Assembly: GCF_003391115.1 (NCBI RefSeq)
Contig: NZ_QTJP01000001.1
Location: 1,984,001 to 2,048,000, forward strand
Length of the DNA stretch: 64,000 nucleotides
From: Sphingomonas crusticola
GTDB lineage: Bacteria > Pseudomonadota > Alphaproteobacteria > Sphingomonadales > Sphingomonadaceae
Direction of reading: 5' to 3'
Position numbers and translations under genes: made by a program. Position 1 is the first letter of the stretch. The number at the start of each line of letters is the position of its first letter. This document shows positions 50,738 to 56,905 of this stretch, in pieces. The notes beneath the pieces were generated by a model. That model saw nothing but the letters and a program-made list of their open reading frames with translations, had not been told where the DNA came from and ran no database searches.

Positions 50738-51682
50738 GTGCCAACGATATTCACTTTGCTGCTGCCCATCGGGCTCGCTGCGATCGTCTGCGCGATCGGG
50801 ATCGTGCTGTGGCGCAATCGCGGCGCGGCGCGTGGCCGGGTGGAGAGCAAAGGTGCTTCGGACGGTGCGACGACCCTTGCCGAAGACCTCGCCCATGCGG
50901 TCGCGCGAAACGAATTCTTCCTCGTCCATCAGCCAAAGATGCGCTCTCGCTCGGGCGAGGTAACCGCGGTCGAGACGCTGGTGCGGTGGCGCCATCCGAC
51001 GCGTGGATTGATCGGTCCCAACGATTTCATCGCGCTTGCCGAAGAAAGAGGCGAGATGCGGAGCCTCACCGAATGGGTGATTCGGCAGACGATCGTTGAG
51101 CAGGCGAGCCTCGCTTCGTGTGGTCATGCCCTGACATTTAACGTCAACATCTCGGCGCGTGTGCTGCCGGACAGGGATTTTGCGGAATGGGCGCTGGCTA
51201 CGGTCAGCGCGGCTTCGGGTCCGATCGGCTTCGAAATTACCGAGACCGCGATGATCGCCGATCCTGAGGGTGCGTTGCGTAACCTGCACCTGTTTGCCGA
51301 TGCCGGAATCAAGATCGCGATTGACGATTACGGCGCTGGCCTGTCGAGCCTGGCTTACCTCAAGCAACTTCCCGCTCACGAGCTCAAGATCGACCGAATG
51401 TTCATCAGCGGCCTGTCCAGCAGCCATCGCGACCCACTACTTGTGCGCTCGACTATCGACCTTGCTCATGCCCTCGACATGGAAGTTACTGCGGAGGGAG
51501 TCGATTCGCCGGCAGCGCTCGCTTTGCTGAAAGTCATGGGCTGTGACGTCATCCAAGGATTCCTGATCGCGATGCCAATGACGCTTGGTGAGCTTAGGTC
51601 CTTCCTTGATGCGCGTGTGGATAGCACGCCCGAAGCCTCCTTGGGATTCAATTGGTTAGCGCGGGCGGGCAAAGTAGGATGA
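50738..51682 (+). CDS. Membrane-anchored EAL-domain c-di-GMP phosphodiesterase
   Basis: 314 aa with a GTG start. One N-terminal membrane helix (residues about 4-25) leads into a cytosolic EAL domain. The name motif reads ETL (E79), and the other catalytic residues are kept: N137, E169, D196-D197, K217, E253 and Q273. It should therefore hydrolyse c-di-GMP. No GGDEF or sensory domain. It is the first member of the signalling group that follows. Confidence 0.88.
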   Translation: MPTIFTLLLPIGLAAIVCAIGIVLWRNRGAARGRVESKGASDGATTLAEDLAHAVARNEFFLVHQPKMRSRSGEVTAVETLVRWRHPTRGLIGPNDFIALAEERGEMRSLTEWVIRQTIVEQASLASCGHALTFNVNISARVLPDRDFAEWALATVSAASGPIGFEITETAMIADPEGALRNLHLFADAGIKIAIDDYGAGLSSLAYLKQLPAHELKIDRMFISGLSSSHRDPLLVRSTIDLAHALDMEVTAEGVDSPAALALLKVMGCDVIQGFLIAMPMTLGELRSFLDARVDSTPEASLGFNWLARAGKVG

Positions 51683-51817
51683 TCTAACGACTCGGAAACG
51701 CGCGAACGGGGACCCCCTAAACTTCATAACGCATTAATATTGCTTGAAAAGATGCTTGCCTATTGGTAAGTAACTTCTCAAGGCGCGGCATTTCGCCCTC
51801 GCCATGACGGAGGCGTT

Positions 51818-52048
51818 ATGTTCAAGGCGACCAAGATTCTCGGCTTCACCACTGTGGCAGCCCTTGCAGTCGGTGTCGCTGCGCCGGCATTTGCTTATGA
51901 GCAGATCCGCCCGATCAAGCCGGCTTATGAGCAGATCCGGCCCGTCGGCCCGTCGTATGAGCAGATTCGTCCAGTCAAGCCCGGTTACGAGCAGATTCGT
52001 CCGGTCAACCCGTCCTACGAGCAGATTCGTCCAGTCAAGCCTGCTTGA
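51818..52048 (+). CDS. Exported pentameric decapeptide-repeat protein
   Basis: 76 aa. GGAGG stands 5 bases before the ATG. Residues 1-26 are a textbook signal peptide ending 'APAFA'. The mature part, 50 residues, is exactly five tandem copies of YEQIRP(V/I)xPx, with units YEQIRPIKPA, YEQIRPVGPS, YEQIRPVKPG, YEQIRPVNPS and YEQIRPVKPA. The 30-bp units (51896-52045) differ by many synonymous changes. Each unit has one Tyr, one Glu and one Arg and two Pro; fixed prolines suggest an extended chain. No family recognised. It has its own terminator and lies between the EAL gene and the TPR kinase. Confidence 0.85.
   Translation: MFKATKILGFTTVAALAVGVAAPAFAYEQIRPIKPAYEQIRPVGPSYEQIRPVKPGYEQIRPVNPSYEQIRPVKPA
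51896..52045 (+). repeat. Five 30-bp tandem coding repeats
   Basis: Units begin at 51896, 51926, 51956, 51986 and 52016, each starting TAYGAGCAGATYCG. The third position varies (TAT/TAC, ATC/ATT, CGC/CGG/CGT) while the protein hardly does. Confidence 0.95.
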
Positions 52049-52078
52049 TGGCATAATCTGGAAGCAGCTGTCGGATGA

Positions 52079-52101
52079 GGGTCGGCTTGCCGGCCCTTTT
52101 T
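52079..52101 (+). terminator. Intrinsic terminator after the decapeptide-repeat gene
   Basis: GGGTCGG / CCGGCCC stem (one G-T pair) closing CTTG, then TTTTT. Confidence 0.75.
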
Positions 52102-52210: not shown

Positions 52211-54625
52211 ATGAATCGGCTGTTAGCCGTCCTTGTGTTTGTCTTGGCGACGGCAAGCCAAGCGGTCGCCGCGCCCGCCCGATCCTTTGACGAGAGTGTG
52301 GCCGCGATCCGTGCAGAAATCGCAGCTGATCCTGAGCGTGCTTTGGCCGATGCTGAGGCGCTGCGCGCTTCATCTCGAGGAAATAAAGCCCGCGGCGGAT
52401 ACGCCGAGGCCACGGCTGACTGGCTTCGGGCAGAAGCGCTTCTTGGTCTCAATAAGCCAGCTGCGGCCCTCCCCATCGTTCGGGCAGCGCTTGTCGCACT
52501 TGGGGAGGCGGACGAGCCCGCTCTCCGCGGTGAGCTGATCCTCGCGCGGAGCGGTGCCGCCGCGGCGCTGGGGCGCGTCCAGGACGCCTTGCGCGACAGT
52601 CAGCTTTCTTATCGCCTCTTCAACCGCGCCAAGGATGCACGGGGACAGGCCAAGGCGTTGCATTCCATCGGATTTTTGTATTCCGACGGAGGCGACTACC
52701 GCACCGCGCTCCGTTATTTCGATGAGGCGATCGAAACCTATTCCGCCGATCCTTCCCTGGTGCTGTCCGCACAAAACAACCGCGCCGTGGCTTTCTCCGA
52801 ACTGGGTCGTTTCCGCGAAGCTGTGTCGGCCTATCAGTCAGCGCTTGCTTACGTTCGCGATCCAGCAACCCGGTCCCTGATTTTGCGCAACCTGGCTAGG
52901 GCACAGGCGGAGGCTGGCGAGTTGAAAGCCGCGCAAACGAGCCTGTCCCGGGCAGTCCGGCTAGCGCGGTCCGCTCCAGCAACGCGGAACACCTCCGCGC
53001 TCCTCGGCGTTGGCGCCTTTCTCGCTTTCCGGCAACGCGACCTGGGGCTTGCCGAGGCTTTGATCAATCGGGCTTTGTCGGCTGGCGATGACGATGACCC
53101 GGAAACGCAGCGCGACCTCCAGCACACTGCTTATGAAATCTACCGGACACTGGGCGACAAGGCAGCGGCGCTTGACCATCTCGAGGCTTTCCGCCGGCTT
53201 GACGACGAGCAACGCGCGCTCGCCGCTTCTTCGAGCGCCGCTTTGCTAAACGCACGCTTCAACTTTGCGAACCAGGAGGTGAAGATTGCCCGCCTCGATC
53301 GCGAAAAGACCGAATCGGCCGCGCGCTTCCGCAACGTTCTTACCCGCGGACTGCTCGCGGCAGCGATCCTGGTCTCGACCCTGCTGCTGATCGGCTTCCT
53401 GTCGATCCGACGCAGCCGCAATCAAGTGCGTGCTGCCAATACGACCTTGCTGAGCACCAACGAAGCGCTCGAAAAGGCGCTGGCGGCGAAGACCGAATTT
53501 CTCGCCACTACCAGCCACGAAATCCGCACGCCGCTGAATGGCATTCTTGGCATGACCCAGGTCATCCTCGCCGGTCGCGCGCTCGACCCGACGCTGCGCG
53601 GCCGGATCGAGCTGCTGCACGGCGCGGGGGAGACGATGAAGGCTCTGGTCGACGATATCCTCGACGTTGCCAAGATGGAGACAGGCGAACTGCGCATCCA
53701 GACCGCGGAGATGGATCTGAAGCGCCTGCTCCAGGATGCTGTCCAGGTGTGGACGGGGCAGGCAGAGACCAAGCGGATCGACATACAGTTCGACCTGGAT
53801 CATTGCCCGGGCAAGATCATCGCGGACGAGGTGCGGCTGCGCCAGATCATCTTCAACCTGATGTCGAACGCGATCAAGTTTACCGACCGCGGACAAGTGC
53901 GACTGGCGGCATTCGCGGAACCAGAAGAAGTCGATGGCGAGGCAATAGGCGAACGGCTGATTGTCCGTGTTGCCGACAGTGGCATCGGCATTCCGCCAGA
54001 GCGGATGGAGGATATCTTCGAGTCCTTCCGTCAGGTCGACGGAGGGGTCACCCGGCGGCATGGCGGGACCGGTCTGGGTCTGGCGATCTGCCGCAGCCTA
54101 GCACGCGCGATGGGTGGCGACGTGACCGTCAGCTCCATGCTTGGTGCGGGCTCGACTTTCACTCTCATGCTACCGCTGGAGCGAGGCGAGGTGGAAGTTG
54201 CGCGCGCGGACCGTGTGCCCGCCACCAGTCTCGCAACCGCCGAGATATTGATGATCGAGCCGAATCCCCTCGGTCAGGGGATCATGCGCGCTCTGCTCGC
54301 GGCGGAATGCGCCGGCCTGCACTTTGCCAGTGACGTCGACGGCGCGCAGCAGGCGCTCATGACTGCCAGCTATGACAGCGTCGTAGCCGAGGGTAACGCG
54401 CTCGGGCTCAATCCTAAAAGCGCTGGCGAACTCGCGGCGACATGCGTCGCGGCGGGTGCTCGCTTCACCTTGTTATGGCGCGAGCCGGACGAGGCGCTGC
54501 TGGCGGCTTTCGCGGAGCAAGGTGTAACGCATGTCATCGCCAAGCCGATCAGCGCGGCCGATCTTCTTTCCGAATTGAACAGGGCCTATGGACAACCGGT
54601 CGCCAGTCGGGACATTGCGGCGTGA
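52211..54625 (+). CDS. Sensor histidine kinase with periplasmic TPR domain and degenerate receiver
   Basis: 804 aa from the ATG at 52211. The signal peptide ends 'ASQAVAA'. Residues about 40-360 are TPR-like helix pairs ('ALHSIGFLYSDGGDYRTALRYFDEAI', seen in parts), predicted periplasmic. A membrane helix is at about 374-396. The kinase follows: H436 in 'SHEIRTPLNG', N-box 'NLMSNAIKF', 'DSGIGIP', 'GGTGLGLAIC'. The C-terminal ~115 residues look like a receiver (K in 'VIAKPIS') but the phospho-acceptor Asp is missing ('YDSVVAEGNAL'). Ligand unknown; the adjacent lone receiver is its likely partner. Confidence 0.87.
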   Translation: MNRLLAVLVFVLATASQAVAAPARSFDESVAAIRAEIAADPERALADAEALRASSRGNKARGGYAEATADWLRAEALLGLNKPAAALPIVRAALVALGEADEPALRGELILARSGAAAALGRVQDALRDSQLSYRLFNRAKDARGQAKALHSIGFLYSDGGDYRTALRYFDEAIETYSADPSLVLSAQNNRAVAFSELGRFREAVSAYQSALAYVRDPATRSLILRNLARAQAEAGELKAAQTSLSRAVRLARSAPATRNTSALLGVGAFLAFRQRDLGLAEALINRALSAGDDDDPETQRDLQHTAYEIYRTLGDKAAALDHLEAFRRLDDEQRALAASSSAALLNARFNFANQEVKIARLDREKTESAARFRNVLTRGLLAAAILVSTLLLIGFLSIRRSRNQVRAANTTLLSTNEALEKALAAKTEFLATTSHEIRTPLNGILGMTQVILAGRALDPTLRGRIELLHGAGETMKALVDDILDVAKMETGELRIQTAEMDLKRLLQDAVQVWTGQAETKRIDIQFDLDHCPGKIIADEVRLRQIIFNLMSNAIKFTDRGQVRLAAFAEPEEVDGEAIGERLIVRVADSGIGIPPERMEDIFESFRQVDGGVTRRHGGTGLGLAICRSLARAMGGDVTVSSMLGAGSTFTLMLPLERGEVEVARADRVPATSLATAEILMIEPNPLGQGIMRALLAAECAGLHFASDVDGAQQALMTASYDSVVAEGNALGLNPKSAGELAATCVAAGARFTLLWREPDEALLAAFAEQGVTHVIAKPISAADLLSELNRAYGQPVASRDIAA

Positions 54626-54646: not shown

Positions 54647-55036
54647 ATGAACATATTGTTCGTCGAAGATGATGCAATGAACCGCCGCGTGGTCCGCGAC
54701 ATGCTGACCGTGGCCGGTGCGACGATGGATGAGGCGGAGGATGCCGAGAGCGGCCTCCAGATGATCGACGCTTATGATTATGACATCGTGCTGATGGATC
54801 TGCGCATGCCCGGAATGGATGGACTGACCGCCATCCGCCACATCCGTGCGCGCACTGACGATAAAGCGAGCGTACCTGTGATCGTCGTCACGGCCGATAC
54901 CGCACTGGATATCTGCCGCGACTGTATCGATCAGGGGGCCGACGAAGTGATTTTGAAGCCTGTCGCCATGAACAAATTGTTCGATGCGATCGGCCGCCTT
55001 ATCGCGCGGGGCAACAGCCGGATGATGCTGAACTAG
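54647..55036 (+). CDS. Single-domain response regulator
   Basis: 129 aa CheY-like receiver with all key residues: E7-D8-D9, D51 in 'LMDLRMP', T82, K104 in 'ILKP'. No output domain. It starts 21 bases after the kinase and so is co-transcribed. It probably takes the phosphate from H436 in place of the kinase's own degenerate receiver. The stop overlaps the tadA stop region by four bases (convergent). Confidence 0.93.
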   Translation: MNILFVEDDAMNRRVVRDMLTVAGATMDEAEDAESGLQMIDAYDYDIVLMDLRMPGMDGLTAIRHIRARTDDKASVPVIVVTADTALDICRDCIDQGADEVILKPVAMNKLFDAIGRLIARGNSRMMLN

Positions 55037-56386: not shown

Positions 56387-56482
56387 GCCGCCTGCCGCCA
56401 ACGTTAACGGCGGCTAACATGCTCATTCAGTATCGACTCAGCGGCCTTGCTGCATAAACCCGTGCGTGGCGGAGGTATCGCC

Positions 56483-56905
56483 ATGAGTACGAGGATTGTG
56501 GCGATGGTGTTCAAAACGCTCAGACTTGCTGGAACGGCGATCATTGCCGCGACCATGCTTGTGCCGACCTTCGCCGGCGCCCAATATTACCGCGGCCCCG
56601 CTCCTTATTATCAGGCTGGCTATAGCCGGGACGGCTATGCCTCCGATCGCGACGGTTATTCCCGTGATCGCGACGGCTATGGCTACGACCGGGGCCGGCG
56701 AGACCGCGACCGCCGTCATGCCAATCGCGACCGCCGCGACTATCGCCATTGTGACCGCGGTACCGGCGGCACCATCCTGGGTGCTATTGCCGGCGGACTG
56801 CTCGGCAATGCCGCAGTGGGCCGTCGCGGCAATCATACGGCCGGTGCGCTTGCGGGCGCAGGCGTGGGCGCGCTCGCCGGGAACGCGATCGACCGCGATT
56901 GCTAA
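56483..56905 (+). CDS. Glycine-zipper 2TM outer-membrane-type protein
   Basis: 140 aa from the ATG at 56483 with GGAGG upstream; the signal peptide ends 'FAGAQ'. The middle is a Tyr/Asp/Arg-rich low-complexity part with 'SDRDGYSRDRDGYGYDRGRR' repeats. The C-terminal glycine zipper ('GGTILGAIAGGLLGNAAVG', 'AGALAGAGVGALAGNAI') is the Rickettsia 17-kDa antigen type 2TM domain. Probable envelope protein of unknown role. Confidence 0.85.
   Translation: MSTRIVAMVFKTLRLAGTAIIAATMLVPTFAGAQYYRGPAPYYQAGYSRDGYASDRDGYSRDRDGYGYDRGRRDRDRRHANRDRRDYRHCDRGTGGTILGAIAGGLLGNAAVGRRGNHTAGALAGAGVGALAGNAIDRDC

Follow-up and report, generated by a model that had tools for sequence, protein, structure and literature searches.

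What is an exported protein for when its mature chain is a decapeptide motif in five tandem copies, and what in the cell might read it? This question is raised by a 76-residue open reading frame (ORF) at positions 51818-52048 of the window, by which we mean the whole 64,000-nucleotide stretch of the Sphingomonas crusticola genome (G000) analyzed here. In translation, the N-terminal part of this ORF, MFKATKILGFTTVAALAVGVAAPAFA, is hydrophobic and ends in AFA. We read it by eye as a signal peptide, and the predicted cleavage after AFA (residue 26, a site likewise read by eye) leaves exactly 50 residues. These form five units of the pattern YEQIRPVxPx, in the order YEQIRPIKPA, YEQIRPVGPS, YEQIRPVKPG, YEQIRPVNPS, and YEQIRPVKPA, followed by the stop codon. 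TRF reports the array as 51893-52046 with a period of 30 (score 161) and as 51896-52046 with a period of 60 (score 197); no other array in the 64-kb window scores above 69. Translation and TRF bear out the earlier note on this DNA, which had described an exported protein of five such decapeptides, the export signal being the part read by eye. Its further claim, that 5 x 10 residues are left with no leftover, holds in S. crusticola and in the congener G006 (26 + 50 residues each) but not in the congener G002, where the signal peptide is longer and the last unit has nine residues. The features of the locus are as follows.

50738-51682, + strand: c-di-GMP phosphodiesterase-type protein with an EAL domain (Pfam EAL, 6.9e-64), its N terminus hydrophobic as read by eye
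51723-51748, + strand: decayed CtrA box TTCA-N7-TTAA (51723-51737), overlapped by TTAA-N7-TGAA (51734-51748)
51809-51813, + strand: Shine-Dalgarno sequence GGAGG, four bases 5' of the ATG (from the sequence; GGAG[GA]CGTTATG in G000, G006, and G002)
51818-51895, + strand: signal peptide of 26 codons, AFA preceding the first Tyr (read by eye)
51896-52045, + strand: five tandem decapeptide units YEQIRPVxPx (TRF, translation, ortholog comparison, dN/dS)
51896-51925, 51926-51955, 51956-51985, 51986-52015, and 52016-52045, + strand: the single units
52046-52048, + strand: stop codon of the array ORF
52077-52098, + strand: terminator-like hairpin of nine pairs with a T run (hairpin scan)
52211-54625, + strand: sensor histidine kinase with a signal peptide (by eye), a TPR superhelix, a TM segment (by eye), HisKA, and HATPase
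54647-55036, + strand: single-domain response regulator (Pfam Response_reg, 3.1e-27)

The same note had credited the gene with a strong binding site and its own terminator. The GGAGG sequence confirms the former, while the latter stands with a qualification, since the scan that picked out the hairpin found three such sites in 701 bases against 0.7 expected and is weak taken alone. In G006 and G002, the array orthologs are followed by hairpins of 12 pairs. At the array gene, nothing matched a sigma-70-type promoter. The array models as a disordered chain, the predicted structure being devoid of secondary structure with a pLDDT of 53.9, which is weak evidence given an alignment of only three sequences, and no anchor, sorting signal, or Cys was seen in the protein.

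Relatives of the array and selection on its units

A search of 148 relatives revealed array orthologs in two congeners, G006 (71% identity), with five units YETIRPVxPx, and G002, with 11 units YDDIRPVxTA that include the shorter last one. Four of the 148 matched at E <= 0.01, namely the own genome, G006, G002, and G015, whose match (E 0.0047, residues 2-35 within a 645-codon frame) we discarded as chance. In all three array species the gene occupies the same place, in the order EAL gene, array, TPR sensor kinase. A profile search found the array in three of 397 family genomes at E <= 0.001, own genome counted, and in one of 396 order genomes at E <= 1e-4, which is the own genome; the two samples overlap, and the order list includes just two members of the genus. 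Plasmids gave just two weak records (E 0.4 and 0.6) and phages no array match. Scanning genome contigs for the motif pattern returned 19 stretches, of which one is a relative, on a contig of a Sphingomonas sp. MAG (L047) that equals the G006 contig C137 in length, at 6387 bases; the other 18 are short-period DNA repeats or unrelated frames as judged from their translations, without each being traced, and two viral stretches are short-period repeats open in several frames. Beyond the two congeners and the MAG contig, no convincing relatives turned up in the samples searched.

Nor does the array belong to a catalogued family. The best Pfam match of the window protein, to Bflower (PF21784), reaches 15.5 bits, below the gathering cut-off of 25, and neither NCBIfam nor PHROGs holds a family matching this protein. 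PHROGs matches to the G002 array (best 7.8e-5) and a PDB profile match (E 0.19) were taken as composition matches. In openly available papers, we found no match for YEQIRPV, YETIRPV, or YDDIRPV, and none for a decapeptide repeat combined with a signal peptide and Sphingomonas. Conservation shows the family to be real, and it is undescribed in the sources searched. This agrees with the earlier note, which knew of no such family and had proposed looking for the repeats in other genomes. Homologues do exist, with unit numbers of 5, 5, and 11; as to two of the outcomes that it had named as refuting, absence of homologues and decay of the repeats in sister strains, orthologs were found and their repeats are intact.

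The units differ mainly at silent sites, as the note had held. Over the core (positions 1-7), dS is 1.11 in S. crusticola, 1.37 in G006, and 0.32 in G002, with corresponding dN values of 0.025, 0, and 0, so that core dN/dS is about 0.02 in S. crusticola and exceeds roughly this value in none of the three arrays; 10 of the 11 G002 units entered this estimate, and unit pairs within an array are not independent. Over all 11 G002 units, the core shows no replacement difference. Since the heptapeptide core is nearly invariant and its silent sites have diverged, selection acts on the peptide, which had also been suggested before. The silent/replacement pattern and the orthologs together rule out chance or low-complexity DNA as the source of the array.

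The third residue of the unit is uniform within each species, being Q in 5/5 units of S. crusticola, T in 5/5 of G006, and D in 11/11 of G002. Silent divergence within the S. crusticola and G006 cores is not far below the 1.70 found between the two species over the array, yet this residue is uniform in each. Each array may have undergone a new expansion soon after the two species separated, or its units may be held alike by gene conversion or selection. Unit-by-unit orthology between S. crusticola and G006 is not supported, 46 of the 120 possible unit orders fitting no worse than the actual one. The G002 array (L003:1318-1749) is probably a younger expansion: its silent-site dS, taken over 10 of the 11 units, is 0.27, and the five-unit arrays reach 1.14 and 1.40.

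Such regularity brings to mind a precursor of free decapeptides, in which a protease would cut before each Tyr after export and release five or eleven near-identical 9-10-mers as a secreted signal, in the manner of the fungal alpha-factor and KEP precursors. Unit size is exactly 10 residues in 20 of 21 units, the core is near-invariant, the residue before Tyr is small (A, S, or G) in 21/21, and copy number varies among species. However, the residue three before Tyr is not conserved among orthologs (K/G/N/A vs V/A), the last G002 unit breaks the size rule, and no cleavage enzyme was identified among the four neighbourhood proteins put to profile searches. The literature searched offered no Sec-exported bacterial precedent either, microviridin being a bacterial multi-core precursor of another kind. 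On balance we consider processing into free peptides unlikely.

Composition weighs against some other roles. The arrays contain neither Cys nor His, and their net charge, counted by hand, is not conserved, going from about +3 (S. crusticola) and +2 (G006) to about -11 (G002), which speaks against the metal- or wall-binding strand envisaged in the earlier note. Charge and composition also argue against an antimicrobial role. Five equal copies behind a signal peptide would be an unlikely make-up for a translation-arrest or attenuator leader.

A CtrA box in the leader and its counterpart mini-ORFs

Neither a CtrA box, nor the differing third residue of the orthologs, nor the adjoining periplasmic TPR kinase had figured in the earlier note. 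The sequence TTAA-N7-TTAA is given as the full CtrA site in two publications (PMC8921679, PMC9437464). It occurs, perfect, at the matching place in six of the seven genus genomes, where at most 0.0004 would be expected per 125 nt, although these genomes are related and the occurrences not independent. In 7/7 the box lies 93-99 bp from the start codon, the decayed S. crusticola copy counted, and G002 has a second box at 82 bp. The box of the window's genome, with one mismatch, is the sole imperfect one among the seven. The CtrA model NF045991 scores above its cut-off of 350 bits in exactly the six genomes that have the perfect box, the best match in S. crusticola reaching 183.7 bits. This agreement between box and regulator across genomes is good evidence of a genuine box. 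The CtrA-type regulator model finds 29 matches in S. crusticola and 23, 35, 47, 56, 61, and 67 in the others.

In S. crusticola, no CtrA match exceeded the cut-off and no match to ChpT (PF10090) or FlhA (PF00771) was found, in an assembly rated 99.99% complete. The other six genomes have CtrA and FlhA in 6/6 and ChpT in 5/6, the one without a ChpT match being G006, whose genome is only 71% complete. S. crusticola nevertheless keeps the array ORF, its Shine-Dalgarno sequence, and its terminator intact beside intact EAL and kinase genes. The coincidence of the imperfect box with the missing CtrA match suggests that the array may have persisted here after CtrA was gone. The seven genomes thus amount to a natural experiment, in which one genome has no detectable ctrA or flhA and has kept the array.

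The EAL gene followed by the TPR sensor kinase is kept in 7/7 genus genomes, with the array between them in three. The remaining four congeners (G001, G003, G004, and G005; loci L009, L010, L011, and L012) have, instead of the array, a mini-ORF of five or six codons with a strong Shine-Dalgarno sequence: MYRPY, MYNPF, MILPF, and MGVVPW, all four ending in Pro-aromatic-stop. Their leaders carry the CtrA box, 93-97 bp from the mini-ORF start, and predicted hairpins. Each mini-ORF genome has a single occurrence of the box combined with TTTACCAT; the other three genomes lack this combination. The mini-ORF is possibly a leader peptide. Rfam gave three matches in the seven loci, all far below gathering scores, and none near gathering at the mini-ORF leaders.

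Could the array itself be a passing by-product, a young ORF born of repeat expansion in an old CtrA-driven leader and functionless in S. crusticola, where ctrA was not found? It is present in only 3/7 genus genomes, the mini-ORF of the other four begins at the same position, and the S. crusticola box has decayed. In trees of the EAL and TPR proteins, moreover, a single branch separates the array species from the mini-ORF species (support 99/98 and 98/97). Depending on where the root lies, either state may be the older one, and the outgroup branches of the EAL tree are long. The low core dN/dS in all three arrays weighs against this account, as do a Shine-Dalgarno sequence and a terminator-like hairpin in each of them, and we regard it as very improbable.

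What else CtrA may control was surveyed in G002, which has 12 perfect TTAA-N7-TTAA boxes, two of them at the array gene and another 96 bp upstream of the CtrA match. For eight others, the downstream gene that seemed most plausible was picked by hand; these genes encode PEP-CTERM proteins (four), GGDEF proteins (two), a sugar transferase (one), and a PLP decarboxylase (one). One box (L091) has no convincing gene. The four boxes before PEP-CTERM proteins (L090, L092, L095, and L096) stand 67-105 bp upstream. A control pattern gave 6 sites against these 12, meaning that about half of the boxes outside the array locus may be chance. The four PEP-CTERM boxes hint that CtrA governs a surface programme of PEP-CTERM proteins and exopolysaccharide.

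In such a programme, the array could be a structural or adhesive protein of the envelope or matrix, a flexible surface rod containing Pro and Tyr, whose production CtrA would coordinate with that of exopolysaccharide and PEP-CTERM proteins. Its repetitive chain, disordered in the model, would suit this role, as would the G002 boxes beside PEP-CTERM, sugar transferase, and GGDEF genes, with the reservations just given. The mature chain is, however, only about 50 residues long in two species, its net charge is not conserved, and it shows none of the features mentioned above (anchor, sorting signal, Cys). A bulk role would also leave the near-invariant seven-residue core unexplained. We find a matrix protein rather doubtful.

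The adjoining TPR kinase as a candidate reader

If the core is kept for binding, the nearest candidate partner is the TPR part of the sensor kinase, whose model has a mean pLDDT of 89.9. The nearest solved folds are TPR superhelices, among them consensus designs, LGN with bound peptides, Rap, and O-GlcNAc transferase; against Rap with its pheromone (4gyo), the model scores E 1.9e-6. The modeled fold makes a peptide ligand for the kinase plausible, the match being generic to TPR superhelices. Farther downstream, at 56447-56905, lies a second repeat-bearing, apparently exported protein with GY.DRD-like repeats (TRF period 21, 56630-56688) and, by eye, a glycine-rich, zipper-like tail after them.

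The kinase does not need the array, because it is present in 57/397 family genomes against 3/397 for the array, both counts including the window's genome. Among the regions 5' of the TPR kinase in 30 loci, 25 of them from other genera, the array is found in three, which are the array species; the upstream filter was crude, and in three loci at contig ends (L056, L063, and L066) the upstream part is misplaced. These three were excluded from the TPR alignment, which covers 27 of the 30. A receptor-ligand coevolution test was negative, as at equal EAL divergence the TPR of array species is no more divergent than that of others. TPR identity is 61% between G000 and G006 (EAL 92%), 55% between G001 and G003 (EAL 92%), and 64% between G004 and G005 (EAL 87%). 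Of 14 TPR residues specific to the array species, eight lie in presumed inner helices, a weak indication.

A partner encoded elsewhere in the genome, also in the envelope, would make the adjoining kinase coincidental. Its own promoter box and terminator set the array apart, the terminator meaning that it is not obviously cotranscribed with the kinase, and the kinase is common without it. Yet the array adjoins the EAL and kinase genes in 3/3 species, including S. crusticola with no CtrA or FlhA match, and we judge a distant partner distinctly unlikely.

Our best explanation is a multivalent motif array. The exported, unfolded protein would be built from copies of one linear motif, Y-[DE]-x-I-R-P-V, each followed by a three-residue spacer, and would bind one dedicated envelope partner multivalently. 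Its likeliest partner would be the adjoining downstream kinase, through the periplasmic TPR domain that spans about 52271-53340; the kinase may then signal how much array is present or bound to the single-domain response regulator and to the c-di-GMP enzyme encoded at the locus. Where a congener has CtrA, CtrA would switch transcription of the array gene, probably together with surface and c-di-GMP genes. What sequence and computation show is the export signal (by eye), the array, the selection on its motif, the conserved place, the CtrA box, and the modeled TPR fold; multivalent binding, the kinase as partner, and the signalling output are inferred from these. Taken whole, the statement that a multivalent array has the adjoining TPR kinase as its likeliest partner and is CtrA-switched in congeners is put forward tentatively, as possible but somewhat short of probable. 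A more specific version seems to us somewhat unlikely, namely that a periplasmic TPR sensor kinase reads an exported multicopy array under CtrA control as part of a peptide-ligand system of Gram-negative bacteria, the residue at position 3 (Q, T, or D) giving each species a uniform motif variant of its own.

Comparison with known systems

A lineage-restricted, exported, near-pure motif that is near-invariant within a genome and changed in step between species offers a clean system for studying how the units of a repeat array change together, along with their reader. Several known systems resemble it in part. Fungal KEX2-processed repeat proteins (KEPs), which include pheromone precursors of the alpha-factor type (PMC6339444), share the signal peptide and the near-identical short repeats. 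The likeness is one of layout; the array is bacterial, has no dibasic KR or RR (KEX2) sites, and shows no evidence of cleavage. Multi-core RiPP precursors such as the microviridins (PMC5934393) likewise carry several similar core peptides per chain. The array instead has a Sec-type signal peptide in place of their leader, and no RiPP enzymes were noticed among the four neighbours searched. The TPR domains of LGN/Pins with Inscuteable, NuMA, or Frmpd4 peptides (PDB 3sf4, 3ro2, and 4wne), which are among the nearest folds of the sensor TPR, are eukaryotic and intracellular and have unrelated ligands.

Proline-rich antimicrobial peptides are cationic when mature, in contrast to G002 units such as YDDIRPVATA, which are net negative. 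RRNPP receptors (the Rap, Rgg, NprR, PlcR, and PrgX families) are cytoplasmic proteins of Firmicutes. Here, too, a peptide gene adjoins one for a TPR protein linked to a two-component pathway, as for Rap with CSF (PDB 4gyo), and the TPR folds match. The present TPR part differs in lying between a signal peptide and a TM segment (both by eye) and in being fused to the kinase, and the motif comes in 5-11 copies. If the adjoining kinase does read the array, a Gram-negative two-component system would have Rap-like peptide sensing on its periplasmic side.
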